From assembly GCA_902793375.1 (NCBI GenBank), contig CADBDE010000011.1, forward strand, positions 1 to 64,000: a stretch of 64,000 bases of DNA, written 5' to 3'. Below are positions 2-61,963 of this stretch, one piece after another; the first letter of the stretch is position 1; every line of letters begins with the position of its first letter. This DNA is from an uncultured Erysipelotrichaceae bacterium (GTDB lineage: Bacteria; Bacillota_I; Bacilli_A; RF39; UBA660). The position numbers were made by a program, and so were the translations under genes. Below the pieces are notes generated by a model. The model was not told the origin of the DNA. It saw only the letters and a program-made list of their open reading frames with translations, and ran no database searches.

Positions 2-703
2 ATGTCTAGTTTAAATCAACTTATTTCAGAAATTATTTCAATAACTGGAACTCCAAATAATGTTCCTGTTAGACGAAATATTAAGTATGCTATATTGCAT
101 ACTCGTAATGAGCTTATAAGACAAAGTTATGGAAATCATAGATATGTTGATAAAGGTTTAGAACAAAGATTTAGAATTTCCATAATCGATGTTCCTGACG
201 GAGATTTATTTGATACTGATAATTTGGGACTCCCCGTAAGGAAAAGAACTACATTTAAAGTGCCTAAACCTGTTAGGCTTGATAATAATCTTCCTTTCCA
301 AAGTGTTCGTACTGCTGGATATAACGGAAAAGAGATTGCTTTTGTAAGAGAACCTAGTGCTAAATATTATAAACATTTGCCAGGTTTTTGCTCTCAACAT
401 TGTTATGATTATATCAATGGATATATTTATATTTTTGGTGATGCTGATTATATTCCTGCTTTAGGTGCTATAATTATAGAATCACCTTTTGAAATGCCTC
501 ATTTAATTCCTGAAGAAACTGTTGAGAGTTTTAAAGATATAAGTGAATATGACCCTATTGATAACGAAACTATTTATGATGATGATGAATTTCTACTACC
601 TGAAGATATGGTAGAACAAATTAAAGCTCTTATTGTAGAAAGAAATGTTTTAAATAGTGTTCGTGAAACTAATGAAACTCCAAAAAGAAACTTAATTAAA
701 TAA
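2..703 (+). CDS. Tail ring / tail-tube adaptor protein (P22 gp4-like) candidate
   Basis: 233 aa, starting with ATG at the left edge of the window. The N-terminus (residues 1-60) is a helical head with an SLNQLISEI opening and an RNELIRQ segment, a pattern I associate with the crAss-like tail tubular/ring proteins that connect portal and tail. The C-terminus is acidic and ends in a helical segment. It is followed after 2 nt by the next structural gene, so it belongs to a translationally coupled tail operon. One CCCCGTAAGG element (229-244) lies inside and is read as L-P-V-R-K. The assignment rests on this N-terminal pattern and gene order; no catalytic motif is expected. Confidence 0.55.
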   Translation: MSSLNQLISEIISITGTPNNVPVRRNIKYAILHTRNELIRQSYGNHRYVDKGLEQRFRISIIDVPDGDLFDTDNLGLPVRKRTTFKVPKPVRLDNNLPFQSVRTAGYNGKEIAFVREPSAKYYKHLPGFCSQHCYDYINGYIYIFGDADYIPALGAIIIESPFEMPHLIPEETVESFKDISEYDPIDNETIYDDDEFLLPEDMVEQIKALIVERNVLNSVRETNETPKRNLIK

Positions 704-705
704 CT

Positions 706-1647
706 ATGAAATTACCATCCGCTGATTATTCTGCTGGTAAATATTTAGAAAGGTATCTAAATGTTTGTGCTATTAGGAGAAATGAAATAGCAATAGACTT
801 ATCAAAAGCTCAAGAGCATATTGCTGAAGCTAAAGAAGAATTAACTCCTAATATAGATAAAATAAATGATTTAGCAGAAGTTTGTATAGAAGATTCTATA
901 GAATATACAAAAGAACAAGTTGTTGAAAATTCATTAACTGAACAATTAATAACTAGTGCTATTTTTAAAGCTGTTAAAGCTGAAGATAGAGAAGTTTTAA
1001 AAACTGCGATAAAATATTTTAATGCTTTAAGAGAATACAATGATTGTAAAAATAAGATATTACATATTGATAATGTAGTTAAACGATTTAAAGCTAAAGG
1101 TGCTGAATTTAGAAAAATATTATATCATTATTATGGATGCGGCTTTACAAAATGTTTAACTGAAGGTTATGGATATAAATTTAATAATAATCTTGGTTAT
1201 GTAATGATTAAGAATATAAAAGATGGTAAAAAACAAAGATTGGATTGGGCTAAAACTAATGCTAATAAAAAGAAGTTTCAAGAACTTGGTTATAAATTGA
1301 AGACTAAAGATAATCCTAATGGTGTAGATTATAGAGTATATATTAGAGTTGAACAACATAAAGAATTATTCTTTTTTGGTCAATTCTTTAATAATTTAGA
1401 TTTTTGTATTGAACTAACTGAATATGTTGGTAAAACTTTAGTAAATGCTAGAGAACAATATAAAAATGCAAAAAATCCACAAGAAATACTTAGTACTGTA
1501 GATACTAGTATGAATTTTAAAGCTAAATTATCTTTATGTCTTGAAAAATTTCCTGGATTAAGACTTAAATATAATCGAGGAGATTATCAGAAATATAAAG
1601 CATTTATTAAAAATAAAACAATTAAAGTTAAATATAGAAATGAGTAA
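706..1647 (+). CDS. Hypothetical structural protein, helical
   Basis: 313 aa, Lys- and Asn-rich, with a long helical N-terminal half (residues 25-140, likely coiled coil: alternating E/K with regular Leu/Ile). I see no known enzymatic motif. It starts 2 nt after the preceding ring-protein candidate and its end overlaps the next gene by 8 nt, so all three are probably co-translated. By position between ring-protein candidates and the tail stabilisation protein it is probably a tail or neck component; that role is inferred from context only. Confidence 0.55.
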   Translation: MKLPSADYSAGKYLERYLNVCAIRRNEIAIDLSKAQEHIAEAKEELTPNIDKINDLAEVCIEDSIEYTKEQVVENSLTEQLITSAIFKAVKAEDREVLKTAIKYFNALREYNDCKNKILHIDNVVKRFKAKGAEFRKILYHYYGCGFTKCLTEGYGYKFNNNLGYVMIKNIKDGKKQRLDWAKTNANKKKFQELGYKLKTKDNPNGVDYRVYIRVEQHKELFFFGQFFNNLDFCIELTEYVGKTLVNAREQYKNAKNPQEILSTVDTSMNFKAKLSLCLEKFPGLRLKYNRGDYQKYKAFIKNKTIKVKYRNE

Positions 1648-2500
1648 TAATACTACTGTTGGTATTGAAAGGATTATCGCTAAGATAGATAATGATTTTA
1701 ATCTTGACAATAGTGATTGGATACCTAGAGTTGCTGCATGGTGTATTGATGCTATGTCGCAACTCGATGTGCTTAATAAAGTTAAAAAAAGAAAAAGACT
1801 TGAAGTACATAATCGTATTGCTGTAAATAATTGTAATATTGTTGATGATGATTTAGAAGTATATGATGAGAATGGTTGTAAAGTAGATAGATTAGAAGAT
1901 AAAAATTGTGGTTGCTTGTATCCAGCAGAAGATGATGATAATAGTAATAAAGACGATGATTGTAAAACTAATGGTGCTAGAACATTAGAGTATGGTGTAG
2001 AACATCCTTATAACTATGTTACAGAAGCTGTTCACACTAATGATTATGACCCACGAAATTGGCATGCTACTAGAACTATTCAAGTTCAAAGTCCTTACAG
2101 TGTTAAAAGAAGAAGTCGTAGCAATAAAGATTATGGACACAATTTTACTAAATTAGATGATAAACGAATTGAATTAGGATTTGATACAAGTTTTATAACT
2201 ATTGTAAATAAAGAAGTAGAAACTAAATATAGTGATACTTATAAAATTGAGCTTCCAGTAATTCCAGATAATGGTTTATTGCTAGAGGCTCTTGCTTATT
2301 ATTGCGTATATAAGTTTTTATGTCGTGGATATAAGCATCCTGTATTTAATCTTAATGCTAGTCAATATGGTACTAATCCATATTTTGAATGGATTAGACT
2401 TAAAGATCAAGCTAAACGAAGTGTTCTTAATGATAAAATAGATATTGATAAAGCTAGTTTTAGGTCATATTTCTTTGATAGCACTTTTCCTAAAAAATAA
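1640..2500 (+). CDS. Tail/ring structural protein candidate
   Basis: 286 aa. Residues 1-45 include a WIPRVAAWCIDAMSQLDV segment, a pattern typical of small tail-completion proteins that begin with a helical 'I-A-K-I-x-x-D' module. Middle residues 75-115 are Asp/Asn-rich and probably a flexible loop. The start overlaps the upstream stop by 8 nt, and the giant tail stabilisation gene follows 6 nt downstream. In crAss-like phages the gene directly upstream of the large tail stabilisation/muzzle protein is a ring protein, so I infer that role. No catalytic motif is visible. Confidence 0.5.
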   Translation: MSNNTTVGIERIIAKIDNDFNLDNSDWIPRVAAWCIDAMSQLDVLNKVKKRKRLEVHNRIAVNNCNIVDDDLEVYDENGCKVDRLEDKNCGCLYPAEDDDNSNKDDDCKTNGARTLEYGVEHPYNYVTEAVHTNDYDPRNWHATRTIQVQSPYSVKRRSRSNKDYGHNFTKLDDKRIELGFDTSFITIVNKEVETKYSDTYKIELPVIPDNGLLLEALAYYCVYKFLCRGYKHPVFNLNASQYGTNPYFEWIRLKDQAKRSVLNDKIDIDKASFRSYFFDSTFPKK

Positions 2501-2506
2501 AATATT

Positions 2507-5500
2507 ATGGTTGAAATTGTAAAACAACTTAATATAAATAGGCATCCTCGTGATTGTTCAGACTATAGTCTTGTTAGTGCAGGTAATATGAAACTTACAC
2601 ATGATAAACATAGTCTAACAAATGAGGAAGGAATTGAAAATAATTCTGTTATTAAAACAGCTATAGGTAATTCTATTATTGTTGGTATAATACCTACTTC
2701 TACAGAACTTGTTATTTTTACAAATACAAATAAAATATATAGATATAACGAAAGAACAAATACTTGTACTTTAGTTAATAGTAAATGGACTTGGTCTGGC
2801 GGTAAAATAAAAGGAACTTATACAACAAATGTAAATAATGATTTAATTATTGCTGTAGCTGAATATGATAAGCATGATAAATATAATACATCCTTTACGG
2901 GGAATCCCAAATATAATGGTGATGTGCCTTTAAAAATCATTAATCTTGATGATTCTGATGATATATTTATTGCAGGAAATTTAGCGTATGCTGCTTGTCC
3001 TATTGTTCCCTATGCTATAGCTACTTCTTTTGATTATAAAAATGGATATAGTTACAAAGGTTATTATGAATTTTATATTCGTTATAAAATAAGTAACAAT
3101 AATTATACTCAATGGTATCTTATTAATGGTAAGCCTTTAGTAGATGTTACATCGCTTAAACAGATAATGAGTTATGTTGTTACTGATAGATTTAATGAAG
3201 TAATTAGAAATAAAACAAGACTTACTAAATATTCTAGTGTAAGTAATGGTCATTATGATTTTGTATCAGAAGATAAAGATTTTTGTTCTGTTACTCTAGA
3301 AGTAAATCTTGATTTCATTAAAAATGCTGGTTGTCCAAACTATTCAGAATATCAATTAGCTTATGTTGTAACAAGTAAAACTTATAATAAATGTTATAGA
3401 ACTGATGATATTTCTATAAGTGAAACAAGTTATATTGTAAATCCTAAAACTGAAATAGAACAGTCCTCTGATGAACTTGTTTTAGATTATTATAATTATT
3501 ATAATGTAAGACAAATAACTAATTATAAAAATAGGGTTTATATTGCTGATTATAAAGAACATTCTTTAAATCCTAAAAATATGTCTGCTTATTTAAGTGG
3601 TATTACTTTGGGATGTAAAGAAGTAGATGCTATAACAGGTAGCGATGAAGGTGGTGGAGAAACTACTACTTATTGGAGAGGAACAATTAATTATGCTGGA
3701 GGTAATGCCCAAGTAGAAGATCCAACTGCTCATGTTCAGTTAGTAGAAGCAACTATTGATGGTGTAGATTATTTAGCTTATCCTTGTCAAAATATAACAT
3801 CCTCATACACAGAACTTGTTATTCATACAAATGATGGAGATATTACAACAAGAACTTCTATGGCTTATATCTTATTTGATAAAAGTCATCTTCTTGCAAG
3901 TGGTGATGGATATGCTGTAATTGTTGGACAAAATGCTTCATATAATAGATTAGGAACATATAGTGGAAGTGGTATTGAAATTGTAAATAATGTTAATTAT
4001 ATAACTGTTACAGGTTATCAAACAGAAGGTGGTACTGACCAACAATTTTCAATTAATGCTTTTCAAGGTAACTTTGAAGAACTGATTGGTGTTATTGACC
4101 CTAATACTGGAGGTCCAATACCTACAGCTACTGGAGAAGCTACAGCTACTCAACCTAAAGATTTATTAAATAATTATCTTATTCCTGACGAAAATTATGA
4201 TTTTTATATTAATTTTGTTGATATGTTTGGTCATATTAGTACAGGAATGAAATTAGATCCAGATGTTGTAGATACAGATAATAATTTCTATCATAATACA
4301 AATAATAACGGAGATAAGTATTTTACAACTAAAATACCTGCTAGTGGTTTAAAAGGTTATAGATTTACTATAGAATCAGCAAATGCTCTTAGTGGAGATT
4401 ATATTGCTGCTTTTATTAGTTATAGAAAGTTTGAGAAAAAGAATAAACTTACAGGTATCTCTTACGGGGGAACTAGATTTGCTAATGGTGTTATTAATTA
4501 TGAAGATAGAGTAGATATTGGTGTAGATTCTGCTAAAAAATTATATGCAGCTAATCCAACTGATTGGCATAATCTTTTATATAATACTTATAAAGCATTA
4601 GCTGGCGATGAAGTACAATATAGAAAATATAAAAGCTATTTTATTGAAAAAGGTTTAAATCCTTATAGCGGTATAACTCGAAATATCATACCAGAAATAA
4701 AAGTAGCTAATTCTGCTACAGCTGATAATATAGGTAGAGAAAGTTATATAAGAATTGCTAATTTAAAAGAAACTGATAGCTATAAGCCTTCAGATATTGC
4801 TGGTGTTAATCTTGTAACTTTGTTTAATGATAATCTTAATCCTTATGCTAATTCTGATAGAGAATTAATTCCTACAGCTTGCATTATAACAAATGATAAA
4901 GTTTATGATAACAATACAGGTTATAATGGATTTCTAGCATTTGACTCTGTTATAGTTTACTATGACGGAGGTTTTGTGTTAAATGGAACTGAGGGAAATA
5001 TTTATAATGCTCTAGGAAATCAAGTTATTAGTAATGATATTTTATTATATCCTGAAGGAACTCCTGCTGTTCAAATCGGAGATACTAAAAGTAACACTAA
5101 TAGTCATCCGTATGTTTGTTATATTTTTGCTTATTTCTGGGATTATCCTCTTCATGTAAGAGTATTTAATAATGCTCCTAGAGTAACAATGGCTGTTCCT
5201 GATGAAGAAGTTACTAATGCAGACGAAGGACAAGTAAAACATGTAGTTCAAACTATTGTAGAACCTAAAGATAGTATTGATTTATTTAAATATCCTCATC
5301 CTAATAAATCTGATGTTGGCAGTTTTAAAACACTTATAAGTTATAACGAAGAAGCATTAGATGTAACAGAATATGGTAAGACTGTTCGCAGAAGTGATGT
5401 TTTAGCAGACGAAACTGAAAATATCGCTTGGCGTAGATTCCCCGTAGAGGGATATAAAAACATTATTGAAAACAAAGGAATTATTACTAATCTTCTTGGA

Positions 5501-6514: not shown

Positions 6515-6515
6515 T

Positions 6516-7024: not shown

Positions 7025-8083
7025 ATGTCAAATTTAATTACAAGAAACGGAAAACCTAATGTTATTAGAGGAGGTATTGCTAGACAATTTGCTCCAGGTT
7101 TATTTTATATGAATGGTAGAACTCATGCTAAAGGAGGTATTGATATTGGTAAAAATCCTAGAACTGGAGTTGAAGTAGAAAATGGGGAAGTTGTTCAATT
7201 AAATAAAAATGGTATGAGAGTGTTTAGTGCTATGCCATTCCTTACGGGGGAATCCCCTGCTAGTCTTGTTGCTAATGGTGCAGACCCAGATATTGTTTTT
7301 GCTGCACAAGAGAATTTTAAAGATAGATTTGGAATTAATGATGATGGTACAATGAAAGCTGAATATGGTTTAAAAGTAAGTACTAGAGGTGATGATGATA
7401 ATAAATATATGACTTTTAAACGCATGATTAATACTTTAGGTAAATTATATTATGATGCTAAAGTTAAGGCTGCAAACAAAAATAATGTTGATGAAGAAAC
7501 TATTTCTTATTATCCTTCATTAGAAACTGTACAATATATTAAAGGTAAAGAAGCATTTAGACCTAATATTTATCACGATGGTAAAGGTATTCCTACAATA
7601 GGATATGGTACTACTCAAAGTACTAAAGCTGGCAAAAATGCTTTTAAACTTTATGGAAAAACAGGAATGACTGAAGAACAAGCAAGTTCTGTTTTTAATG
7701 AAACTGTTAGAGAAATGCTACCAAATTTTATTTCTGCTACTCCTAATTTTAATAGATTAAATGATAATCAAAGAAATGCTCTTTTTAGTTATTATTATAA
7801 TGTTGGACATGGTGGTTATACTAGAAAGAGTCCTAAATTACAACAAGCATTAAAAGATTTTAATCTTGATGAAGTTGTTAATCAAATGGATTTTGGATAT
7901 TATGATACTAAAAATTCTGGTCTTAGAAAAAGAAGAGATGAAGAAAGAGCTTTGTTTAATATGAAAAGTATGGGCGGACAAACAAATAAAAATATAGCTG
8001 TTCAGATTCCTAAATCTCAAATTAAGATAATTAGAAAAATTAATTCTTCTAAAGCTAATTTTGTTGATATTAAAAAATCCTAA
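7025..8083 (+). CDS. Virion-associated lysozyme (GH24-like) with crAss structural N-domain
   Basis: 352 aa. Residues 1-115 form a domain with RGGIARQFAPG, FYMNGRTHAKGGIDIG and VENGEVV, seen in crAss structural proteins. Residues about 165-305 resemble GH24 (T4-type) muramidase: KGKEAF supplies the catalytic Glu region, YHDGKGIPTIGYGTT is the classical GxxTIGYG motif, and QRNALFSYYYNVG matches the family's 'Q-x-ALxSFxxNxG' block. It probably opens peptidoglycan during infection. Its stop overlaps the next ORF at a run of six A; one missing A would fuse the two frames (see the next gene). One element copy at 7238 reads F-L-T-G-E-S-P. Confidence 0.7.
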   Translation: MSNLITRNGKPNVIRGGIARQFAPGLFYMNGRTHAKGGIDIGKNPRTGVEVENGEVVQLNKNGMRVFSAMPFLTGESPASLVANGADPDIVFAAQENFKDRFGINDDGTMKAEYGLKVSTRGDDDNKYMTFKRMINTLGKLYYDAKVKAANKNNVDEETISYYPSLETVQYIKGKEAFRPNIYHDGKGIPTIGYGTTQSTKAGKNAFKLYGKTGMTEEQASSVFNETVREMLPNFISATPNFNRLNDNQRNALFSYYYNVGHGGYTRKSPKLQQALKDFNLDEVVNQMDFGYYDTKNSGLRKRRDEERALFNMKSMGGQTNKNIAVQIPKSQIKIIRKINSSKANFVDIKKS

Positions 8084-9692
8084 TCGTAAATATATCAAAG
8101 ATTGGGAATCAAATAAAGTTGCTACTCATAAACTTGGAGTGGGAAATGATATAAATGATAATGTTTATATATATCCAGAGGTTCAAGAAATTGATGGAAA
8201 ACTTATTGATTTTACAAGACCTCCTTATCATATTTTTGCTGGACAAGATTCTGCTGAACAGAGAGGCGATACTGTAAGAGTTGATAATATAGATGATGCT
8301 ATTGAATTTACACAAAATTATAAAAAATATTATCCAAATTTTGAGTATAAAATGGGTGTTCAAGAATTTGCAAGTAAAGTATTAGCAAATAAAGAAGATT
8401 ATAGTCCTGCTATGGTTAAAAAAGCTAATTTTGCTAGAAATGCTAGTAGATGGAAAAAACCTGTTGGAGGTATTATTTCTATTAACGGTAATGTTAAAAA
8501 TGGTTTAGTTTATACAGGCAGAGCTAAAGCTCCTTATGGAATAGGAAGATTCTTGTACGCTGAACCTAGTATATATGGTGCTTATTCTACAAATAAACCT
8601 GCTTTTACAATGCTAGGTATGCGTCCTGGATGGAGTCATACTTATAATGAACCTATTAATCCATTAGCAGATTTTGTTGTACCTAAAATAAATTTAACAG
8701 ATGCTGAAAAAAAAGCTATGGATGAGGTATTAAATCCTGTAGGTATTAGTGGTCAACGAGCACGCACTACAACAAGGACTTCTACAAATGGACAATCACA
8801 ATCTGTTGCAGATACCCCCGTATGGGATGATATTTTTAACGAAACTGTTATTGGTGAACGACCTGCTGTAAGTCCTAGAACTGGTAGACTTTCTGATAAT
8901 TATAAATTAACTATTCCTGATAGAATAATCAGGGGTGGTGAAATTACTCCTCCTGAATATAGAGCAGATATTACTAATGGTTATATTGATGGAAATTTTG
9001 ATGGAGAAGTATCTAAAGATAGACAACCTGAAACAGATACTACAGGTGGTGGATTTAATTTAAAAGATCCTGCTATTATTGGTGCTGGTATAAATATGTT
9101 AGGTACTCTTGGTAGTTATTTAATAAATAAAAATATATTAAATAAAGCAAGACCTAAACCTACTAATGTTAGATTAACTGCTCAAAAACTTAAAACTAGA
9201 TATAATATAAATCCTCAGTTAGATGAATTAAGAGAACAAGCTGCTGCTAATAATAGATTAATTAATAATAATACTGCTAGTTCAAGAACAGCTCTTGGTA
9301 GAATGAATTTGATTAATACTGCTCTTGGTAGAAGTCGTGCCGAACTTTATGGAAATAAAGAAAATAGAGAAACAGAATTAATTAATCAAGATATTCTTAA
9401 TTCACAGAATGTTGGTAATCAGCAAGCTATTTATAATGCTCAACTTAGAGCTGATTATCAAAATAGATTAGATGATTTTAATAGGTTAAAACTTGCAAAC
9501 AATAGTGCTTTATTTAGTGGACTTACTGGAGGTGTTAATAGTATTGTTGATGCTTTGTTAAGACAAAGATATTATAATAATACTATTGGCGCTATAGGTG
9601 CAAGAAATCCAAATGTAGATGCTAGAATATTTAGAGATGCTGGTGTCGATTGGAGTTTCATGTATCCATATTCTACTAGAAATCGTAGTTAA
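8061..9692 (+). CDS. Virion internal protein; probably the frameshifted continuation of the lysozyme protein
   Basis: 543 aa as an open frame. The only nearby start is a TTG inside the previous gene, and the first ATG lies about 290 nt further in, yet the residues before it (KYIKDWESNKVATHKLG, LIDFTRPPY, AEQRGDTVR) look genuinely coded. The two frames meet at AAAAAA (8072-8077), so a single-base slip or sequence error would make one protein of about 890 aa. Residues about 340-365 are hydrophobic (IIGAGINMLGTLGSYLI) and the C-terminal third is a long helix rich in Arg/Asn. I infer an ejected, membrane-interacting virion protein. Confidence 0.6.
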   Translation: MLILKNPNRKYIKDWESNKVATHKLGVGNDINDNVYIYPEVQEIDGKLIDFTRPPYHIFAGQDSAEQRGDTVRVDNIDDAIEFTQNYKKYYPNFEYKMGVQEFASKVLANKEDYSPAMVKKANFARNASRWKKPVGGIISINGNVKNGLVYTGRAKAPYGIGRFLYAEPSIYGAYSTNKPAFTMLGMRPGWSHTYNEPINPLADFVVPKINLTDAEKKAMDEVLNPVGISGQRARTTTRTSTNGQSQSVADTPVWDDIFNETVIGERPAVSPRTGRLSDNYKLTIPDRIIRGGEITPPEYRADITNGYIDGNFDGEVSKDRQPETDTTGGGFNLKDPAIIGAGINMLGTLGSYLINKNILNKARPKPTNVRLTAQKLKTRYNINPQLDELREQAAANNRLINNNTASSRTALGRMNLINTALGRSRAELYGNKENRETELINQDILNSQNVGNQQAIYNAQLRADYQNRLDDFNRLKLANNSALFSGLTGGVNSIVDALLRQRYYNNTIGAIGARNPNVDARIFRDAGVDWSFMYPYSTRNRS

Positions 9693-9707
9693 TTAAATAA
9701 TAATATT

Positions 9708-12340: not shown

Positions 12341-15300
12341 ATGCCAGATTTATTAACTGTTTTAAATAATGCTCAAAGTGAAGCTCCTGTCAATGCGGCA
12401 GGGGCTTCTCCTACTTATAATCCTTTTGAACAACTTAGAGAGGATTATTCTGAAAACGGATTAAGTAGAATACTTAATCAAGAAACTGGTGTTTCAAATA
12501 CACCTTTAAAAGTGGATAATATAGATAAATATGTCCCTTACGGGGTATATTTTAATGACATAGATACTGAAGCTGACATGAATCGTGTCAGAGCAGAAAA
12601 TCAATCTGTTGGTGAACAATTAGGTAGAATGCTTATTCAAACAGGTGCTGATAGAGTTGGTTTAGGTATACTTAGAGGTTTTAGTGATGTATTAGACCCA
12701 ATATATTCTCTTATTTCTGATGATGAATTACAAGATTATAGTAATCCTGTTAGTGCTAAAATCGAAGAATGGCAAAATGCTATTCGTGATAGATATGAAA
12801 TATATAGAAAAGACCCAAGTAAAGGTATAGATATATCTGATTTTGCTTGGTATATGAATGGACTTACTGATGTAGCTAGTACCGTTGCTTTATATGTTCC
12901 TGCTTGGGGAATTAGTAAAGCTGTAGGTTTAGCTGGAAAAGGTTTAAGTCTTGCTGGAAAAGCATTAAGAACTGCTGAAAGAGTAGGAGATGTTGGTTCA
13001 AAATTAGGTATTAGTGCTACAACTGCTAGAAATCTTAAAGAAGGTACAAAACTTTTAGGTCAAGCAGGTTTAATGAGAATTGGTGAAAATTATCAAGAAG
13101 CTCGTGAAGTATATAATGATATAAAAGATAATACAACACAATTACTTTCTAATATGTCTGCTGAAGAACGTGAAAAACTTTATAGTAGACGACCTGATTT
13201 TATTAATATGTCTGACGACGAAATTGCTACAAAACTTGCTGAAGATGGTGCTACTAATACTTTTATTGAAGATATGTTTCTTATAGGCTTTGATGCTTTA
13301 CAATTAAGAGCAATAGGAAATATGTGGAAAGGATTTACTAATAGAGCCACAAATACTGCTATTAAAGAAGCTCAAGCTAATGCTGTAAGAGGATTAGCTG
13401 GAGAAACTGCTGAAACTGCTACTGAAGAAGGTTTTAGAGGTATTAGTAGAAAATTCTCTAAATATATACCAACATTCAATACTTTAAAAGATTATGTTGG
13501 AGAATGGACTGAAGGTCTTGAAGAAGCATATCAATATGTTGCTCAAACTCATAATACTGCTGTAGCAAAAAGTATTATAAATAATAAAGAACACATTCCT
13601 ACTTTTAGTGATTATCTTACTGATAGTCAAATGTGGAATAGTGCTATTTGGGGTTTTATTGGTGGTGCTATGTTTCAAGGAATTATGACTGCTGGTCAAT
13701 CCGCAGTTGATAAAATAATGAAACGAGAAGATGCTGGAACTAAAGCTAGGATTGAAGAAATTAATGGTAGACAAGCTATTCTAAATAATTTACTTCAAGA
13801 TTTATCTGATGCTTATGAAAAACGAACTCCTAGATTAGATAACGAAGGCAATATTGTAAAGGATTCTAGAGGAGATACTATTTATGATGATTTAAGTGAT
13901 GAAGAAGCTGCTCTTAGAGTTGAAGAAATTAAAAATAAATATATTCTTGATTTAGTTTATAATGCAGCTAATAAAGGCAACTATGATTTATTAAAAGATA
14001 TGTTTAGTAGCAGACAAGCTAAGAAATATATTGATGATAATTTAAATAATCAAGAAAATTCAGAAGATTTTATTGCAGATGTTACTTCTAGAATGGATAG
14101 AGTATATAATACTTATCTTGAAGAACTAGAAAAAGCAGATTCTGCTGGCATAAAAAATCCTGGTACTGTTGAAAAAGTTGCTTATAGTAATGTTGTTAAA
14201 AGGAGTATGCTAAATGATTTAATTGATAGGGGTACAGCAATAAATGGACAAATTGATTCCCTTTACGGGGGATTAATAAATGGTGATACTTCTTCCCTTT
14301 CTCCTCTTGAACAAGGTATTCTTGCAGAAGCTGTTTCTGAATATAATGCTAAAGCTAGTCATAATATGCTTTCTAGTTATATTCAACAAATGGATACTAG
14401 AAAACAACAAAACGAACAATTACATAAAGCAGGTTTAATCGGTGATTTGGCTTTTGAAAGAGAACAAAAAAATATAGATGATACTGTTAACAAAGTTGCA
14501 GCACAATACGGAATAGTAAAAGATGGTAAAGTTTTAACAGATATAAATGAAATAAGAGAATTTATATCTAATCCTGATAATATTTTATTAAGTGGTACAA
14601 TAGATACTATAGAGCAATATAGTAAAGATTTATTAGCAAATTTAAATAATAGCCAAGTAAATAAATTACAACAAAATATTCTTAAGAGTCAAGTAATTAA
14701 TAAGAAAGAAGATTATCTTAAATCTGCTGAATATCACGAAAGACTTTATGAAGCTGCTAGAGAAGCGACATATCAGAGTGCTAAAAAAGCATTAGAAGAT
14801 ATTTATAATACTGCTGATAATATAGATGATGTTACAAATTATATTAAAACTAGAAATAGAGGAGGTTTAAGTGAACAAACAGCTAATGATATAACAACAG
14901 CTTATACAACAATGGCTAACTTTGTTAGCAGAGAACAAGACGAAGATGTTGAAAGAGATATAGATAATATTATAAAAGATGCTAAAGCAAAAAGAAATGC
15001 TCCAAGAGTTACTACTCCTCAAGGTGCTGTAACAACTCCAAAGCTAGATCTTAATGATAATGCTCAAGCTGCTACAAATCCTGGAACAAATACTACTCAA
15101 AGTAGTGTTGAAAATAATAATCCTGCTCCTGTAGTAGAACAAAATCCAGCTGTTGCAATTCCACAAACACCAACACCAGAAGAACAACTTGTTGCAGGTT
15201 CCCCCGTAGGGAATACATTAAATGATGACGAATCTCCTGCTCCTGACTTTGTAGAAAATAATAGTTTTGCTCAATTTGCAGAACAAGAACGACAAGAAGT

Positions 15301-18300
15301 TCGTAAAGAATTAGATATTCAGAAAAATGTTGCTAAAAGATTAAAAACTTATAAAGCAGAATTAAAAACTAGTAGTGCTTCTGAAATATATAATAAAATA
15401 CGACCAGAATTAGTAAATGATTTTGGTAAAGATTTTGTTGATGAAAATGAAAGAACTATTAATAGTTTTATTGAGAGCGCAAAAGCTTTACTTAATCTTG
15501 GTATAGAACCTGGTGTGTTTAGGTCAGCTGTAGATTTTGGAGAAATTTTATTTAATCCTACAAACGATAATGTTTTAGCATTATTAGATGAATATGCAGC
15601 TACAAGAAAAATAAATACTTTTAATGATAAAATTCCTATAAGTCTTCGTTCATTAATTAGATATATTTATAATAAAAATAAAACTATAGATCCTACTGTT
15701 GCATATCAATTATATGAAAATATTAGAAATGGTTTAGCTGCTAGTAGAGGAAAATTTAATATACGAGAAAATTTAAAAAATAAATATACACTTGAAGATA
15801 TTAAGACAATAATGTCTGAAAGTACAGAAGATCCTATTAAAATTGATTCTAGAATAAATTTAAATGCAGCAAACGAACCGTCTGCAAATTATGCTTTAGC
15901 TAAATTAAATGATGGTAGTCCTGTTACAGTTAGAAGAAATAAATATGGTAATGGTGTAGAATTTTTTGCTAGTGGTGCTAAAATAGGTTATAATATATTT
16001 AGAAAAACAAATGATGGTGTGGGATATAGTTACAAATCTCAAGATAAGATTGCAGGACAATCTTATTTTTCTTATAATTTATATAAAAATAACGGAGAAT
16101 ATAGTTCTACATTATTAGATGTTTTTGATATAATTATAAATAATAAGCCTGGCACATATAAAATAAATGGTCAAACTATAAATATAACAGAAAACGATAT
16201 TAATGAATTTAGAAGTGTTTTAGAGCTTAAAGGAAAACACATAACTGATGATATTTATGAAACATTAAAGAAAAATAAAGTTGTTGAATATATTTTCACA
16301 GCTAATATGATACCTGATGTATCTAAAAATGTTATAGTTGGTAATAATGGTAAAATAGGCTTATTTGAAAGATTATCTAATATTTTACAATATCCTATAG
16401 ATAATATTAGATTTGCTGATATTGACGATCCTTCTGTATTATTTGATAGTATTAAAGATTGGATTGCTAGAGAATATGAAAATTATGCTTATACTGAACA
16501 ATTATTTAATAAATTACAAATTAATCCTATAGTTCAAATACCTGTAAAAAGTCTTAATAGAGGTAAACCTCAATATAGTACTAATTTTGATACTCAATTA
16601 GTAGATGCTATTCCTCAAAGACTTCACAATTCAGTACAAGTTGTAAGACTAATTAACGGAGATAAAGTTTCAGAAGATGGAAAACTTATTAGACAACATA
16701 TCTCAGATAATGGAACTTCTTTACCTCATTATTTCCAAATAGCTTTACCTAATGGTACAAAATATCCAGAATTTGTTGATATATCGCAAGCAGAATGGAC
16801 TAATGAAGGATATGGTAAAGCTATTGCTGATGAATTATACAATTTGTTTATAAAACATTTAAATAGTGAAGATGAAAATTCTTATGATGATTTATATAAA
16901 CATTTAAAATCAATATTAGATATAGATGGTTTAATAATTGATAGTAAAATATATGAAGATAACGGAACTAAAGAAAATAATTATTCTAAGAAAATTATTA
17001 TAGGTTCTCCTACTGACGAAAAAGCTAAAATAGTAATATATAAATATAATAAAGATAATAGTGTTGCTCATAATATATCTGTTAAAATAGATAATGCAGA
17101 TAGTTATAATATATTATTAAAAGACAGTGAAGGAGTTAATAATATAATTAGAAATGCTATAACTCATATATTAACAGGTGCTAGATATAGTTTTCCTGCA
17201 GCTATTCTTGATTCTGGTATAAACGAAAATGTTAATGAATATATTAAAAAAACTGATACAGGATATGATTTAAAGATTGGAAGTATGTCAGAACATTATC
17301 CTACTTTTGCTAGTTTTATGATTGCAAATAAAACTGCCACAACCAATCTTAGAAAAATAACACATAAAAGAGGAAATCAAAGCGAAATAGAAGATAATTA
17401 TGATTATTTTGATAATAATGGATTTGTACCTAATAATAGAGCCGCTGCAAGATTAACTCTTGAACCTAATGTTAATGAATATGAAGCTATTACTGAAGAA
17501 GAACTTAAACGCCGTGAAAATACTGAAACAAATAGAATAGATGAAATAAATAAAATTATTAATGAAGGTAACAAAGAGGCTTATGAAATTCAAACTTTTG
17601 TAAATACTGTTTCTCCTAATTTTGCTAAAGCTGTATTTGATAAAGAATATTATGGTGTTTCCTTACGGGGAATCTTACCTTCTGAAATTGATATTAAGCC
17701 TAATGAATTATATAATAATGAACAAAATACTTCTGGTTTATATAATCCTACTATTGGAAGAATAACTTTATTTAAGCCTTACTTTGATAAAATAACATCT
17801 AATAATGGTGCTTATCAAGCAATGAGAATATTGCTTCACGAAAGTATTCATAAACAGATTAAAGATAATTCTATTCCTATAAATACAGCTACGATGAATA
17901 GTCGTATTGGAGAAGTTTGGAACGCTTTACAGAAAGCAATTAATGATGTGAATAGTTCTGAATATAAAGATTTAAAAAATGCTTACGGTGATAATGTTCA
18001 AGCTGTAATTAATAATTTAAGAGATAATTTACAAACTATTATTGATAATACTGGAGGCAATATTGCAAGTAGAAACGAAGAACTTATTGTTGAAGCTATA
18101 ACATCTAAAAATTTTAGTGATGTTTTAAATAATATAAATACTCCAAATGAAAAAGTTGGAGAGCCAAAAACTTTATTGCAAAAAATTTTGCAATTTATAA
18201 GAAATTTATTTAACTTTGGCAGAAACGGCAACAATAAGATAAAAGATGATACTCTTCTTGCTAAAGTATTTAATAGTTTTACTGAAGAAGTAAGTGCTAT

Positions 18301-40778: not shown

Positions 40779-40795
40779 ATCAATAGTTTTAAAAT

Positions 40796-40834
40796 AAAAA
40801 AGCGTAATAAGCACAAATATAATGCTTATTACGC
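40796..40834 (-). terminator. Terminator of the SSB-like gene
   Basis: GCGTAATAAGCA (40802-40813) pairs perfectly with TGCTTATTACGC (40823-40834); on the minus strand a TTTTTT run follows. The loop contains most of the -7 box of the next promoter. Confidence 0.85.
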
Positions 40835-40845
40835 TAATAATCAAG
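40814..40845 (-). promoter_or_regulatory. Bacteroides-type promoter for the primase, embedded in a terminator
   Basis: Minus-strand CTTG (40845-40842), 20 nt, then TATATTTG (40821-40814), a match to the TTG/TAnnTTTG consensus. The -7 box sits in the loop of the SSB-like gene's terminator, 36 nt before the primase ATG. Confidence 0.65.
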
Positions 40846-43757: not shown

Positions 43758-45095
43758 TTATTTAAATGTACTCCTAATTTTATTTATTTCTTTTTCCTCA
43801 ATAGTTTTAGCTGTATATAATGTGAAAATTTGTATCTCACTGCTATTTGGTACTACATCAGAAAATCTATTTTTAAAATCTTCAAATGTCATAGACGGAG
43901 AAGTAAATATAATAGCATCAATAGCACAAGCTAATTTATTTGAAGAAGTATTTTTAATAGATAAAATATCTATTTTACCGCTAGTAAAAATATTAAATCT
44001 TTTAAGATTATCAGTAGAAATATATTTAGTACCTACAATTTTTATAGCACCTTTTTTAAGTCCAGTTTTATAAGTAACAGGTCTACCATAATCATCAAGT
44101 AATTTCATATTAGGAATACAATCATGATAATTACCACAGAATGTAAAATATTTACTAGACCAATTAGCAGTAACATATTCAGAAACTTTATAAGCAAATT
44201 CTCCTCTTTTACTACAAATTATTATTTTCTTATTTCTAGCTTCTATTTTTTCTAAAATATCAACAATAGTTTTTAATTTTTCATCATTATCAGTAGCAAG
44301 TTTAGATCTTTCTCTAATAATATCATAACAAGTATGTGCTCTTTGCTCAAGTATAGTTGGATTAAATGCATTATCTATTTCTGCATTAAAAGGAATTGTC
44401 ATATCAAGATGTTCACTCCAACCATTATCATAAGCTATTTGTTCAATAAAACTTTTAGCAGATATATTTCCTTTTCCTTGTCTAGCATATTCTATATTAT
44501 CAAAATTTCCAAATATTTGAATAGTATCAGAAATATAATTACTATATTTATCATATTTTTCTCGTAGTTCATCATTGGCAAATTCAACAGCTATGTCTTC
44601 TTCCTTTACGGGGGTTATATTAATTAAGTTCTTAACATCTGTAGCATCTATAGTATTTACCGCAGGAAGATTTTTATAAATTTTACCAAGTTGTTCAATA
44701 GGAATATTAATCTTATTTAACAGCATTAATTTAAACTGAGCATTAGCAAATATAGTTTCAATTTCAGAACACCATTCATTCTTACCTTGAGCTATAACAA
44801 TATCATAATGATATTTCCATTTAGAAACAATATAAGAAAAAGTAATAATACTTAATGTTTGATAAACTAAATTTTCATTTTTTACAGCATTTAAAATTAA
44901 ACTTCTTTTTGATATATCATCGACCACTATAAGTATTTTAATTTTATTATTTTTAGCGGTCATTCTTTTGAGCAAATTTACAATAAGTTCAATATAATCA
45001 AGAGGTGGAACACAGGTAACAACACCTTTACCTTTATTATCTAAACCCCAACGATTAATGATTTTATCATAAGAAACTTCTAATATCTTTTTCAT
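43758..45095 (-). CDS. SF2/SNF2-like helicase protein, Walker A apparently lost
   Basis: 445 aa. Its two-lobe layout looks like SF2: lobe 1 with strands KILIVVDD and YDIVIAQGKNEW (place of the DExx box), lobe 2 with KIIICSKRGEF and AIDAIIFTSPSMTFEDFKNRFSD, resembling motif VI context. I find no GxGKT/S Walker A and no DExx, so ATPase activity is doubtful. crAss-like phages usually carry an active SNF2 helicase here. It shares one base (TAATG) with the polymerase stop. One element (44601) reads I-T-P-V-K. Confidence 0.5.
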   Translation of the reverse strand: MKKILEVSYDKIINRWGLDNKGKGVVTCVPPLDYIELIVNLLKRMTAKNNKIKILIVVDDISKRSLILNAVKNENLVYQTLSIITFSYIVSKWKYHYDIVIAQGKNEWCSEIETIFANAQFKLMLLNKINIPIEQLGKIYKNLPAVNTIDATDVKNLINITPVKEEDIAVEFANDELREKYDKYSNYISDTIQIFGNFDNIEYARQGKGNISAKSFIEQIAYDNGWSEHLDMTIPFNAEIDNAFNPTILEQRAHTCYDIIRERSKLATDNDEKLKTIVDILEKIEARNKKIIICSKRGEFAYKVSEYVTANWSSKYFTFCGNYHDCIPNMKLLDDYGRPVTYKTGLKKGAIKIVGTKYISTDNLKRFNIFTSGKIDILSIKNTSSNKLACAIDAIIFTSPSMTFEDFKNRFSDVVPNSSEIQIFTLYTAKTIEEKEINKIRSTFK

Positions 45096-46145: not shown

Positions 46146-46165
46146 CCTACAACTTTCGCTGTAGA

Positions 46166-46885: not shown

Positions 46886-46916
46886 AATAACTTTATATTT
46901 AAAAATTATAACGATA

Positions 46917-47183: not shown

Positions 47184-48399
47184 ATGTCGGCATGGATATA
47201 AGCAAAGTCATCATCATTTTCGAGTACCCCCGTAGGAGAATCTATCCATTTTCCTCTATTGCTAGACCATAGTTCTACTGGATTATAATTTCTTTACTAA
47301 AAGCATCTTTAGAAGTTCTATAAATAATAACTTTTTTCATTTCTTCAAGCATATCTTGAAGTTCTTTAGTTTTAAAACTAATAAAAGGAAATATAACTCT
47401 TTTAAAAGCCATAGCAGTTCTTTCAGTCTTTTGACCTCTCCATTGTTCTGGCTGAAGTCCACTAAATTTAGAATAAAATTTAGTAAATAGAATATCTGCC
47501 ATATTACTTCTAGAAGAATTTAATACATTTACTCCATAAGCATTAGAAATATTATATCTAGACTTTATTTCATCAGAATATAATCTTACTATTTCACAAA
47601 CAATAAATACATCATTTTTATTATAATGCATCATATCTGGAATATATTCTGGAAGAATACATCTATCCCATTTATCAATAAGATTATTTACTTGTTCTAA
47701 TCTAAGTCCTTTAGTAGAGCCTTCATTATAATATTTATAATATTCTTCTTCATTAATAGGAGGCATTTCATACTCTAATAATTCATACCATTGTAAATTA
47801 ATAGAGGTTTGTTTTAAACCTTTAGGAACACCTATTCTATTACCTTCTTTATCTACAATAGTGCTTGCTTTATCAAGATGAAATATTCTCATAACATCTA
47901 TACCTTGATATGGCAGATTATATTTCTTTAGACTATTTAGATAAAAATCATTTTTACCAAAACTTCTATCATTTTGACTACTAATAATTAATTTACTAGT
48001 ATCATATAGTTTTAATAATAATTCTTTAGTACTAGTTACTCTTTTATAATTGACAAGAAATGCAGCAATCATAAGATTATCATAATTATATGAATTATAT
48101 CCATATAAATCAAATCTTACTTTTAATACATCATTATCAATTATAGGAGAACATTTATTTATAAAATCAACTAAAGGTAAAAGTTGACTATCATCAGTAT
48201 CAGTGATATAAAATTGCCAACATTTTACAGTAGCAAGTCTTCTTTTAATTTCTTCTACACTAATACATTGTACTAAAGGTACAGGTTTTCCATTCTTAAC
48301 ACAATCAGCAAATACTTTAAGATAATCATTGATAGAAATAAATGTAATACTAAAGAAATTTTTTAAAACTTCAACATCAAATCCTATACAATGTATCAT
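47184..48399 (-). CDS. Family B DNA polymerase, exon 1 (exonuclease domain), with a frame break
   Basis: The open frame 48399-47275 (374 aa) holds the 3'-5' exonuclease motifs: FDVEVLKN (Exo I, D-x-E), YGYNSYNYDNLM (Exo II) and HYNKNDVFIV (Exo III), and ends SKEII-IQ-stop. In the -1 frame, coding continues from about 47290 to the intron (ELWSSNRGKWIDSPTG, then DDDFAYIHAD), matching the family segment just before motif A. So a -1 shift, or an indel error, is needed between 47275 and 47296. An element (47226-47240) lies within the shifted part. The upstream helicase gene ends 1 nt away. Confidence 0.75.
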
Positions 48400-50210: not shown

Positions 50211-50501
50211 TTATAATTCTATTCGTTTGATATTAACACTCATATTGCCTATATCTTTCTTTCGTTTAGGCTTATTATAAAGTGTTTTATCATCGTCATC
50301 TTCCTTTACGGGGGAACTTGCAGGTTTATTATCTAACCAAGTTTGTGTATATCCACAATAATGACAAAGATAATCAACTTTACCCCAAGAGCCATTACCT
50401 AATACACCTCTTGGTACTGAAATAACTTTCATTTTTGTATCAACTACACATTTCTTTTCTGCAAGACTTTTAATTACACTTGCTTCATCATACTTTTTCA
50501 T
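50211..50501 (-). CDS. Small zinc-ribbon-like protein
   Basis: 96 aa. CHYCGYTQTW (residues about 46-55) is a half zinc knuckle; a further Cys near residue 18 may complete it. An acidic stretch E-D-D-D-D follows, and element 50301 reads S-S-P-V-K just before it. The basic NKPKRKKD segment could bind nucleic acid. The function is unknown. Confidence 0.5.
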   Translation of the reverse strand: MKKYDEASVIKSLAEKKCVVDTKMKVISVPRGVLGNGSWGKVDYLCHYCGYTQTWLDNKPASSPVKEDDDDKTLYNKPKRKKDIGNMSVNIKRIEL

Positions 50502-52548: not shown

Positions 52549-52644
52549 TTAGGGATTCCCCGTAAGGAAAGCAATATAAATAACAACTTCAATACAAACA
52601 AAATAAACAATAAGAGCAATGATAAATTTAATGCAAACTTTCAT
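52549..52644 (-). CDS. 31-aa single-pass membrane peptide
   Basis: An ATG at 52644 opens a 31-codon frame that is almost entirely hydrophobic (FIIALIVYFVCIEVVIYIA) and ends F-L-T-G-N-P-stop, where the last codons are encoded by a CCTTACGGGG element (52555-52569). It overlaps the preceding gene's end by 17 nt and ends 12 nt before the next gene's start, normal spacing for this operon. Confidence 0.5.
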   Translation of the reverse strand: MKVCIKFIIALIVYFVCIEVVIYIAFLTGNP

Positions 52645-53868: not shown

Positions 53869-54287
53869 TTTTCTTCTGTTAGTTTTAAATCCTTATCATC
53901 AATATACTCTTTAATAACCTTTGTGAAGTTATCCATTGCATTATTAATGCCCTCAATAATACAATTAATAACCCACTCTTTGTTATATGTATAATCATGG
54001 TTTAAACCAGCACAAGAAACTGTAAATTTATTCCATGCAAAAGTTACATATAACTTATCATCTTCTTTGTACAATTTAGCTGCTTTAAGAGCAGCAACAA
54101 TACTCAATGCTGTAAAATGACGAATATCGGCATTAAGTTTAATCTTCTTGACAAGGTTAGTAGTAACTTCATCAATCTGATACTTATTAATAACACTTCC
54201 TTTACGGGGAGTCTTATTATATTTCTTAGCACTTGTAGCATCTTTAGCTACATCAACTACAACTTGTTTTTCTGCGTTATTTTCCAT
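53865..54287 (-). CDS. Early protein, unknown
   Basis: 140 aa. Lys/Ala-rich N-terminus with element 54197 read as N-K-T-P-R-K-G-S, then a compact alpha/beta body (IRHFTALSIVAALKAAKL, LYVTFAWNKFTVSCAG). Codon use is somewhat GC-richer than average. A Bacteroides-type promoter lies about 27 nt upstream. It is translationally coupled to the 63-aa gene. Confidence 0.55.
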   Translation of the reverse strand: MENNAEKQVVVDVAKDATSAKKYNKTPRKGSVINKYQIDEVTTNLVKKIKLNADIRHFTALSIVAALKAAKLYKEDDKLYVTFAWNKFTVSCAGLNHDYTYNKEWVINCIIEGINNAMDNFTKVIKEYIDDKDLKLTEEK

Positions 54288-57090: not shown

Positions 57091-57205
57091 AATCCCCGTA
57101 AGGAATGTATTATAACTACTACTTCCGCTATTACTGCTTTTGCTAATATTAATAATAAAGCTGTTAATGCAAATTGTTGTATTATTGCTTCCCTTACGGG
57201 GGAAG
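57091..57205. repeat. Inverted pair of CCTTACGGGG elements in the divergent region
   Basis: AATCCCCGTAAGGAATGT (57091-57108) faces TTCCCTTACGGGGGAAG (57189-57205), with TGTATTAT next to both. This is the second intergenic facing pair; the other is in the convergent junction. Confidence 0.75.
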
Positions 57206-60508: not shown

Positions 60509-60816
60509 AAAAGTTAATGATTGTATTATTTATGTGTATCCTTTACGGGGGATGTAAAAATAATGTTCCTGAACCAACTATTGTATATATTCCCGTAGAA
60601 GATACTATTAATGCAGTTAAAGTTGTTAATTTAACTGAAGAACTTCATAGAACTAGAGATAGTCTTAATGCTTATAAAAATGATACTGCTATAAGCGAAG
60701 AATTATTTATTGCTAAATTTAAATTAGAAAAGATTAAATATTATAATGACATTGCTGCTAAAGGTAATAATATAAAATTTCTTAGAGGTTGGATTAATAG
60801 AACTTTAGAAGAATAA
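60505..60816 (+). CDS. Small lipoprotein
   Basis: 103 aa. The signal peptide MKKLMIVLFMCILYGGC ends in a lipobox, with Cys-17 as the lipidation site. The L-Y-G-G of the lipobox is encoded by a CCTTACGGGG element (60538-60553). The mature part is a helix with EELHRTRDSLNAYKN. It lies in the lysis region and may be an outer-membrane spanin-like or superinfection-related lipoprotein; the role is inferred. Confidence 0.7.
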   Translation: MKKLMIVLFMCILYGGCKNNVPEPTIVYIPVEDTINAVKVVNLTEELHRTRDSLNAYKNDTAISEELFIAKFKLEKIKYYNDIAAKGNNIKFLRGWINRTLEE

Positions 60817-60819
60817 ATT

Positions 60820-60927: not shown

Positions 60928-60930
60928 ATT

Positions 60931-61347
60931 ATGGCAAATTTTGAATTGGCTTTTGAGCGTACTATGAAAAACGAAGGGGTTTATTCTAATGACCCTGATG
61001 ATGCAGGTAAAGAAACTTGTTTTGGAATTAGTAGAAAATATCATCCTAATTGGGCTGGATGGAAAACTGTAGATGCTTTTAAAAAAAGTTTTACTACAAG
61101 AACTAGTTTAACTAATGCCCTTAAAGGAAATAATGTGTTGCTTAGTCTTGTTAGAAAATTTTATAAAGAAAATTTTTGGGATTGCTTTGAACTTGATGAT
61201 TGTAAAAGTAATAATACTGCATATTTAATGTTTGATACTGCTGTTAATATGGGTAAGGCTCAAGCTATTAAATTAGCTCAAAGAGCATTAGGTCTAAAAG
61301 AAACTGGTAGGTGGAGTTTGAAATTATTGAACGAATTAGTAAAATAA
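60931..61347 (+). CDS. GH108 endolysin (N-acetylmuramidase)
   Basis: 138 aa. NEGVYSNDPDDAGKETCFGISRK... carries the catalytic Glu (residue 14) in the family's E-G-G-Y-like motif, here E-G-V-Y, and FDTAVNMGKAQA is the conserved C-terminal block of GH108/peptidoglycan-binding 3 proteins. It degrades host peptidoglycan at lysis. It is a separate enzyme from the virion lysozyme (7025). It stands with spanin-like genes. Confidence 0.8.
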   Translation: MANFELAFERTMKNEGVYSNDPDDAGKETCFGISRKYHPNWAGWKTVDAFKKSFTTRTSLTNALKGNNVLLSLVRKFYKENFWDCFELDDCKSNNTAYLMFDTAVNMGKAQAIKLAQRALGLKETGRWSLKLLNELVK

Positions 61348-61362
61348 TAAAAGTATAGAGTC

Positions 61363-61644
61363 ATGAAGAAGCTGTTAATAATAGTATTAATATTGCAGAT
61401 AATAATTTGTCTATTCCTTTTATTTTCAGTTATAGTTACGCAAGGCAAACAAAATGCTGGCACAACTACTGTTCAAGATACTGTAATTAATAGAGTTCGG
61501 ATTGACTCTATACATATTTTAATTACAAAACAAGAAAGTATTATTAATAGAATAAATATAAAAGAAAAGTATGAAATTGAAAAAGCTATTAATAGTAACG
61601 ATAGTGATGTTGTTAAGCTGTTTAAAGAGCTGGTCGCAGAATAG
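61363..61644 (+). CDS. Spanin-like inner-membrane protein
   Basis: 93 aa. N-terminal hydrophobic span (LIIVLILQIIICLFLLFSVIV) then a helical periplasmic part, layout of an i-spanin. Its final 74 nt overlap the next ORF in another frame, as nested spanin pairs often do. Function inferred from layout and position after the endolysin. Confidence 0.55.
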   Translation: MKKLLIIVLILQIIICLFLLFSVIVTQGKQNAGTTTVQDTVINRVRIDSIHILITKQESIINRINIKEKYEIEKAINSNDSDVVKLFKELVAE

Positions 61645-61963
61645 TGATTATAACATATCCCTTACGGGGGATTCCATAATGGTTGCTATTAGTGATTTAC
61701 GAATTGTGAATACTAAATTAATAACTGCTAAATATAATGCTGAAAGACTTGCTGTTAAGGATAGTATTATAAATTATCAAAATCAAAAATATGAAGCATT
61801 GAATGTAGAAGTTAAATCTTTACAAGATAAACTACATAATACAAATGTTTTAAACGAAACTTTGAAAAAAGATGTTGAAAAAGTAAATAAAAGAAACAAA
61901 ATATTGAGCGGTATTAGTGGTGGTGCTATTGCCGCTTTTATAGTTTGTTTGTTAATAAAATAA
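61571..61963 (+). CDS. Spanin-like coiled-coil protein with C-terminal anchor
   Basis: 130 aa. Signal-like N-terminus (LLIVTIVMLLSCLKSWSQ, possible lipobox Cys), long coiled coil (residues 55-108) and a C-terminal hydrophobic end (GAIAAFIVCLLIK). It overlaps the previous gene in frame +1. Element 61657 reads S-L-T-G-D-S. It could be a holin/spanin component; whether the N- or C-terminal segment is the membrane anchor is unclear. Confidence 0.55.
   Translation: MKLKKLLIVTIVMLLSCLKSWSQNSDYNISLTGDSIMVAISDLRIVNTKLITAKYNAERLAVKDSIINYQNQKYEALNVEVKSLQDKLHNTNVLNETLKKDVEKVNKRNKILSGISGGAIAAFIVCLLIK

Follow-up and report, generated by a model that had tools for sequence, protein, structure and literature searches.

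The 64,000-base window analysed here, bases 1–64,000 of the 74,902-base contig C11 (CADBDE010000011.1) within a 1.59 Mb assembly, was assigned to a crAss-like phage and carries 33 copies of a short oriented DNA site with the constant core TACGGGG. The main regularity of these sites is their even spacing on each strand separately; each strand is tiled evenly, without regard to the other strand or to the genes. This regularity was missed by an earlier note on the same DNA, whose observation of a highly iterated motif was confirmed in part. Because the spacing is set per strand and is indifferent to genes, a strand-specific reader acting on DNA would be expected, and we consider a role of the site in such a one-strand DNA process very likely.

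The core was found 33 times in the window against 0.27 expected under an order-2 Markov model, and the longer word TTACGGGG 28 times against 0.09. The earlier note had reported at least 33 copies, far above chance, with 19 in forward and 14 in reverse orientation, and the same counts were obtained here. The word that it proposed as the core, CCTTACGGGG, was present in 14 exact copies (none in 100 dinucleotide shuffles), but the constant core is TACGGGG instead. Within genes (open reading frames, ORFs, of at least 80 amino acids), 26 copies were counted, whereas 300 codon-preserving shuffles averaged 0.20 and never exceeded 2; the excess thus withstood the comparison that the note had named beforehand as able to refute it. 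A weight-matrix scan of the full 74.9 kb contig recovered the same sites, 33 in the window and two beyond it (35 in all), with scores of 17.3–32.9 bits at a threshold of 11.8, and the logo of 38 sites from C11 and C31, another contig of the assembly, was TyCyT-TACGGGG-r with 24.9 bits.

With respect to genes, 14 window sites were sense, 12 antisense and 7 intergenic, the last group being enriched in view of the 7,444 intergenic bases among 64,000. The sense sites occupied all three phases and sites were found in both orientations, in agreement with the earlier view that selection acts on DNA rather than on protein. The accompanying claim that the motif is read in every frame held for the sense sites, whereas the antisense sites occupied two phases, since YTACGGGG would read as a stop codon in the third. 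The motif is an oriented site of ca. 16–20 bp and not a convincing palindrome. The near-palindromic character given in the earlier note was only weakly borne out, with genome means of the fold z-scores from −0.98 to +0.91 (DNA parameters) and from −2.21 to −0.21 (RNA parameters), and a hairpin or palindrome was not retained as a description of the site, the folding being unconvincing across genera under either parameter set. A promoter was rejected, as the mixture of sense and antisense sites, with 26 of the 33 inside genes, speaks against it. An assembly artefact appears unlikely because other genera carry their own versions in independent public records. Separately, short repeats of the GCGGAGCG.../GAGCGTAGCG type were observed directly 3′ of intergenic sites, at 57195–57240 (+) in the window and at 6026–6060 and 28177–28210 in Carjivirus (L011).

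Across ten genomes with 269 sites, only 10 same-strand pairs lay closer than 2 kb, compared with 76 opposite-strand pairs. After strand relabelling, the number of such same-strand pairs was 42.6 ± 4.6, and none of 2000 trials gave a value as low as 10. The pooled standard deviation (SD) of normalised same-strand intervals was 0.46, compared with 0.77 for relabelled and 0.93 for uniformly placed sites (0 of 2000 trials in each case). These pooled probabilities are too strong because the genomes share ancestry, and the single-genome tests are safer: the interval SD was below that of relabelling (p < 0.05) in nine of the ten genomes, with Hacihdavirus as the exception (p = 0.063), and below that of uniform placement (p < 0.05) in all ten. 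For the window alone, the SD was 0.37, against 0.73 (relabelled) and 0.93 (uniform), with 0 of 5000 trials each. Opposite strands did not repel each other; 20 minus sites had a plus site within 150 bp, where 6.3 were expected by rotation, and opposite-strand pairs were as close as 25–45 bp. Both strands carried sites in every genome, and mean same-strand spacing ranged from 3.5 to 15 kb, with one-strand stretches empty of sites reaching 38 kb (Hacihdavirus), 27 kb (Wotdevirus) and 25 kb (Rudgehvirus). An undirected repeat resembling HIP1 or uptake sequences, which the earlier note had drawn on for comparison, fails to explain avoidance on the same strand without avoidance on the opposite one. 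Its description of 8.8–12.5 kb (3.7 kb) as the sole long gap also did not stand, given the longer gaps at 40.1–44.6 kb (4.5 kb) and 20.9–24.8 kb (4.0 kb). Even tiling of each strand fits a use in which one strand is exposed or traversed alone, as in initiation, Chi-like control or nicking.

A site in the genome's own spelling was among the most over-represented words in all ten named Intestiviridae records examined (nine genera), with TACGGGG, TAYGGGGG, TACAGGGG or TACGGGC as the core and an information content of 25–34 bits per genus logo. The spellings were ATCCTC-yACGGGG-rGT in Carjivirus, TCCTC-TACGGGG-rGT in Delmidovirus, TTCCTy-TACGGGGG in Diorhovirus, TCTTC-TACGGGGG-AGC in Hacihdavirus, TTC-TACGGGGG-nG in Wotdevirus, CTCCTy-TAyGGGGG-AA in crAss002, CTTT-TACGGGGs-GGCT in Fohxhuevirus, TCCTy-TACAGGGG-A in Rudgehvirus and CTy-TACGGGCm-AG in Whopevirus. 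As the core pattern of each relative was picked from its own most over-represented words, enrichment in the relatives is by construction, while spacing, orientation and position played no part in the choice. In Carjivirus, the weight-matrix iteration drifted to other repeats (35 hits vs. 16 seed sites) and was dropped in favour of the seed pattern. A host-dictated site seems less likely, because two Bacteroides phages (crAss002 and Rudgehvirus jaberico) differ in the core.

Among 28 Intestiviridae-type primase loci from IMG/VR (10–21 kb), a motif-like 8-mer was over-represented more than 50-fold in 20 and not in the other 8. The same test (at least four copies) gave no value above 36-fold in 19 Steigviridae/Suoliviridae-type primase loci, and nothing comparable to the motif was found in the halves of two Suoliviridae genomes. 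The whole genome of crAss001 (Steigviridae) was without the motif; a single 8-mer family, GACTCGAA, stood out there (6 copies, 71-fold), which we take for a putative tRNA sequence. The Crevaviridae genome cr127_1 (L053, NC_055886) carried an unrelated, longer iterated motif, TGGCCACAAGGGCGAGAGG..TTCCGA, at 1773–42235 and 59328; its word CAAGGGCG occurred nine times in 83 kb on both strands, with some opposite-strand pairs 170–190 bp apart. The motif itself was unreported in the open-licence literature among the matches listed.

Some of the sites have been kept in place between genera. When positions were mapped via protein alignments between ordered pairs drawn from 11 records, in which Whopevirus was represented by two pieces, 195 of 493 retained a same-orientation site within 30 nucleotides (nt), compared with 3.6 expected at random, and one was reversed; because ordered pairs were used, conserved sites are counted more than once in these figures. 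The remaining positions were not kept, a result that also bears on REP/REPIN-like elements, and the same was true of most window sites other than those at 39947 (−) and 44607 (+). In view of this retention and of a hairpin that is unstable in some genera, the tiny mobile palindrome suggested in the earlier note was not supported, whereas a binding site for replication or recombination, also among the roles it offered, was supported. With a looser pattern, a site-like sequence was present at the homologous place of the primase gene in 26 of the 28 IMG/VR loci, where ca. 2.5 were expected from the mean pattern density; the exceptions were L038, which had no site, and L047, which ends before it. 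Since the primase site lies in an indel-rich peptide stretch and is translated in two frames, as Y-G or as L-R/L-Q, protein constraint would account for its conservation at most in part.

Among strand-specific processes, we tentatively favour a dedicated priming (single-strand initiation) site, a reading that approaches an even chance but falls short of it. It builds on the over-representation of the site, its family-wide but genus-specific spelling, the position and orientation kept at some sites, the per-strand spacing, the indifference to genes and a composition of YTA with a pyrimidine tract, all of which were computed. In a composition tally of 278 sites chosen on their 3′ half alone, 5′-YTA was present in 249 (CTA 127, TTA 122) and the six bases before the core A were pyrimidines in 96%–98%. 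Deviations from the genome consensus within the tract stayed pyrimidine in 204 of 253 cases, whereas composition predicts 33%. According to the available part of PMC5204125, some DnaG primases initiate at the trinucleotides CTA and TTA, and their primers begin with purines. The predicted structure of the window primase matched T7 gp4 chains in the PDB (E = 1.6e-5), and a profile of the primase alignment gave no match to PDB sequences at E ≤ 0.1. DnaB_C was detected neither in the ten Intestiviridae records nor in the Crevaviridae record nor on contigs C11 and C31, and was present in both Suoliviridae records, which show no comparable motif.

We infer the primase as the reader, a primer as the product and the written strand as the template. 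The primase, alone or with a partner, would begin an RNA primer made of purines opposite this tract once the strand becomes single-stranded, and the fixed grid of sites on each strand would set the starts of discontinuous or complementary-strand synthesis in Intestiviridae phages. A wider version of this proposal is possible but doubtful, namely that the whole family copies its DNA via a fixed, strand-by-strand grid of long start sites replacing a DnaB-tied primase, that the spelling drifts in concert in all copies within a genome, together with a reader, and that an unrelated spelling does the same job in Crevaviridae.

Several observations weigh against a priming site. Okazaki fragments measure 1–2 kb in bacteria, and same-strand spacing of 3.5–15 kb, with single gaps reaching 38 kb, is long by comparison, although the seeds may miss variant copies. 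Both strands were equally rich in sites on either side of the GC-skew switches, and thus a single bidirectional origin with sites on the lagging strand only was not seen. In Carjivirus, CCA replaced CTA in 15 of 31 sites, accounting for all 15 CCA sites in the tally, and G-U pairing in a hairpin could be another source of the pyrimidine tract. The DnaB contrast is thin, resting on two records, because crAss001, which is without the motif, gave no DnaB_C match (E ≤ 0.001) despite an annotated replicative helicase. Rather than being short, weakly specific and dense, the sites hold 25–34 bits and are far more specific than the primase motifs known to us; the T7 primase motif amounts to ca. 2.5 bits in the accessible text of PMC11109968.

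The attempt to identify the reader by co-variation also failed to single out the primase. No column of the primase, single-stranded DNA-binding protein (SSB), protein X, RecT, SNF2-type ATPase or helicase tracked the motif variants above random groups, in a set comprising the loci other than L048 and L022, with variant classes assigned to the Intestiviridae loci other than L012, L023 and L047. The gene of protein X, a speculative candidate, was flanked by those of SSB and RecT wherever this gene cluster occurred in the set (39 records), and the protein's model reached a predicted local distance difference test (pLDDT) score of 89. It had no Pfam match at E ≤ 0.1 and no match in a profile search of PDB sequences at E < 0.03; Foldseek returned no PDB match for the model at E ≤ 0.001, and VIA-align 2, applied to Foldseek's own matches, gave none above Z 2.8. 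An AbrB-like reading of its N-terminus (FRITxxVSKALGLxxGDYVMF), a likeness noticed by eye, gained nothing from the Pfam, profile and structure searches and was not relied on.

The same even tiling of each strand and indifference to genes would also be predicted by a Chi-like oriented site at which a helicase-nuclease or translocase of the phage, travelling from a DNA end, is switched over or halted, with recombination-dependent replication restarting nearby and even spacing limiting the loss from either end. The phages encode a RecT-like annealing protein, a Gam-like protein, a superfamily 1 (SF1) helicase with an exonuclease V-like match, an SNF2-type ATPase and a PD-(D/E)XK exonuclease, and a highly conserved site, retained in all nine mappable genomes, falls within the SNF2-type ATPase gene, although this is uninformative on the reader. 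However, Chi sites as known are short and set by the host enzyme, whereas the present site is much longer (16–20 bp, 25–34 bits) and its core differs between the two Bacteroides phages; no protein column tracked its variants. In the metagenome-assembled genome (MAG) holding the window, which is probably not the host, TTACGGGG occurred 31 times, with 28 copies on C11, three on C31 and none on the other 29 contigs. We regard a Chi-like role as rather unlikely. Nicking at specific sites, familiar from T5-like, phiKMV-like and tf phages but here on both strands, would reproduce much of the same phenomenology: in the accessible portion of PMC3517423, the tf/LUZ24 group has an iterated oriented consensus (TACT/RTGMC in tf) at similar positions among relatives, with a main recognition sequence that tf does not share with its relatives. 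Those sites lie on one strand only (PMC3517423, same portion), whereas the window has 19 plus and 14 minus sites and all ten genomes carry sites on both strands. Moreover, at the many close opposite-strand pairs, nicks in both strands of AT-rich DNA would be liable to break the genome. We consider nicking distinctly improbable.

A double-strand DNA-binding protein with an architectural, segregation or packaging function would be consistent with the high information content and the intergenic enrichment. Such binding alone leaves unexplained why avoidance is confined to the same strand and why C and T exchange with each other without purines, and we consider it improbable. The strand-specificity would suit a hairpin formed in single-stranded DNA and recognised by the giant RNA polymerase of the phage, in the way that the N4 virion enzyme recognises hairpin promoters; the products would be transcripts or primers. 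The pyrimidine tract can form G-U pairs with the G tract, and the mean RNA z-score lay between −1.2 and −2.2 in seven of the ten genomes. It was only −0.2 to −0.8, however, in Fohxhuevirus, Whopevirus and Hacihdavirus. With DNA parameters the genome means were −1 to +0.9, the GGGCC spelling of Whopevirus came without a matching change in the 5′ arm, and sites were antisense as often as sense, unlike ordinary promoters. A hairpin of this kind is thus very improbable. A priming site remains the reading that we prefer over these four.

The phage encoded by the window has a family B DNA polymerase, a primase, a RecT-like protein, a Dda-like helicase and a Gam-like protein, and a giant ORF of 4,200 amino acids occupies the position of the RNA polymerase gene. 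Its primase is ca. 55% identical to those of Carjivirus and Delmidovirus, which places the contig, judged by sequence, near Crudevirinae within Intestiviridae. No nucleotide match to window 1–12000 was found in phage records at megablast sensitivity, and no close relatives of the window ligase, of the window primase or of the cr127_1 primase were found in viral contigs, where an alignment query did find relatives. The 6.7 kb contig C31 may be another phage piece. Crass-like primase loci recurred in many MAGs of low GC content (labels Bacilli, Clostridia, Tenericutes or archaeon), which suggests binning by base composition, and for this reason the remainder of the assembly is probably not the host. 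Such loci in records with these labels and in one Chitinophaga isolate (L056–L066) probably reflect misbinning or contamination in public genomes. The sites and the two candidate reader genes are listed in Table 1.

Table 1. Positions of the sites and candidate reader genes in the window.
Feature	Position	Strand	Basis
Site, TACGGGG core	230..243	-	weight matrix
Site	2891..2904	+	weight matrix
Site	4458..4471	+	weight matrix
Site	5438..5451	-	weight matrix
Site; same-orientation site within 30 nt in Delmidovirus (1/2 mappable genomes)	7238..7251	+	weight matrix, mapping
Site	8814..8827	-	weight matrix
Site	12534..12547	+	weight matrix
Site	14259..14272	+	weight matrix
Site	15200..15213	-	weight matrix
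Site	17659..17672	+	weight matrix
Site, lowest score (17.3 bits)	18308..18321	-	weight matrix
Site	20859..20872	+	weight matrix
Site	24815..24828	-	weight matrix
Site	25294..25307	+	weight matrix
Site	28162..28175	+	weight matrix
Site	28914..28927	-	weight matrix
Site, left of divergent intergenic pair (45 bp apart), at cumulative GC-skew maximum (30-32 kb)	31385..31398	-	weight matrix
Site, right of 45-bp divergent pair	31433..31446	+	weight matrix
Site	33331..33344	-	weight matrix
Site, intergenic	35325..35338	+	weight matrix
Site	37222..37235	-	weight matrix
Site	38429..38442	+	weight matrix
Site in primase gene (39947); kept in 7/9 mappable genomes; site-like in 26/28 IMG/VR loci	39939..39952	-	weight matrix, mapping
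Site, antisense in primase gene	40095..40108	+	weight matrix
Site, antisense in SNF2-type ATPase gene (44607); kept in 9/9 mappable genomes	44602..44615	+	weight matrix, mapping
Site, intergenic, adjoining homing-endonuclease insertion in PolB gene	47226..47239	-	weight matrix
Site	50302..50315	+	weight matrix
Site, intergenic	52556..52569	-	weight matrix
Site	54198..54211	+	weight matrix
Site, left of divergent intergenic pair (95 bp apart), at cumulative GC-skew minimum (56-58 kb)	57092..57105	-	weight matrix
Site, right of 95-bp divergent pair	57190..57203	+	weight matrix
Site	60539..60552	+	weight matrix
Site	61658..61671	+	weight matrix
DnaG/T7-type primase, proposed site reader	39585..40844	-	phrog_12622, E 1.1e-87; model vs T7 gp4 PDB chains, E 1.6e-5
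Protein X, between SSB and RecT genes; candidate reader (speculative)	41921..42712	-	in all 39 records with the gene cluster

Other features of the window were observed alongside the sites. Cumulative GC skew turned at 30–32 kb (maximum) and 56–58 kb (minimum), and both turns coincide with intergenic switches of gene direction, each with a divergent site pair. The family B DNA polymerase gene (45095–48399, minus) was split into 45095–46138 and 47275–48399, each matching phrog_1252, with a GIY-YIG-type homing endonuclease ORF (46166–46885) between them; the interruption looks like an intron or intein insertion. The palindromic words AAGCTT, AGATCT, CTTAAG, ATGCAT and GAATTC were strongly under-represented over the full window (for AAGCTT, 16 seen against 105 expected, both strands counted), a pattern as under restriction pressure.

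Crass-like phages are among the most abundant human gut viruses, and their mode of replication is described as unknown in the available part of PMC10136315. The short oriented signal, its even spacing on each strand and its spelling by genus point to a use in the copying or recombination of phage DNA, and strand-resolved, genome-wide site positions make the replication question directly testable by experiment. The concerted evolution of ca. 17–35 copies per genome with their reader represents a natural experiment in the change of DNA recognition. The site also provides a genus-level signature for the annotation of crAss contigs, and even single-strand spacing, being readable from the sequence alone, may help to find similar sites in other phages.

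Compared with known systems, the site shares a pyrimidine template, CTA/TTA, strand-specificity and a phage-encoded primase of the same type with DnaG/T7-type priming and with single-strand initiation/primosome assembly (ssi/PAS) sites. Known primase motifs are ca. 3 nt long and dense, whereas the crAss sites are 16–20 nt long and thousands of bases apart, and the known ssi/PAS sites of plasmids and phages are single elements, not a genome-wide grid. HIP1, uptake sequences and REP/REPIN elements likewise consist of a highly iterated short sequence, and to our knowledge none of them is tiled per strand; REP/REPIN are for the most part palindromic elements between genes, whereas genes hold 26 of the 33 window sites. 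Chi has orientation, iteration and per-strand action in common with the phage site, which differs in being long and in varying between phages of one host genus. Independent tiling of two strands with a long, genus-specific spelling is not something we know from nick sites, ssi sites or Chi. The closest in behaviour are the nick sites of the T5, phiKMV, tf and LUZ24 phages, with an iterated oriented consensus, similar positions, shifting spelling and a function given as unknown in the accessible portion of PMC3517423; compared with these, the crAss sites lie on both strands, are longer and are evenly spaced on each strand.

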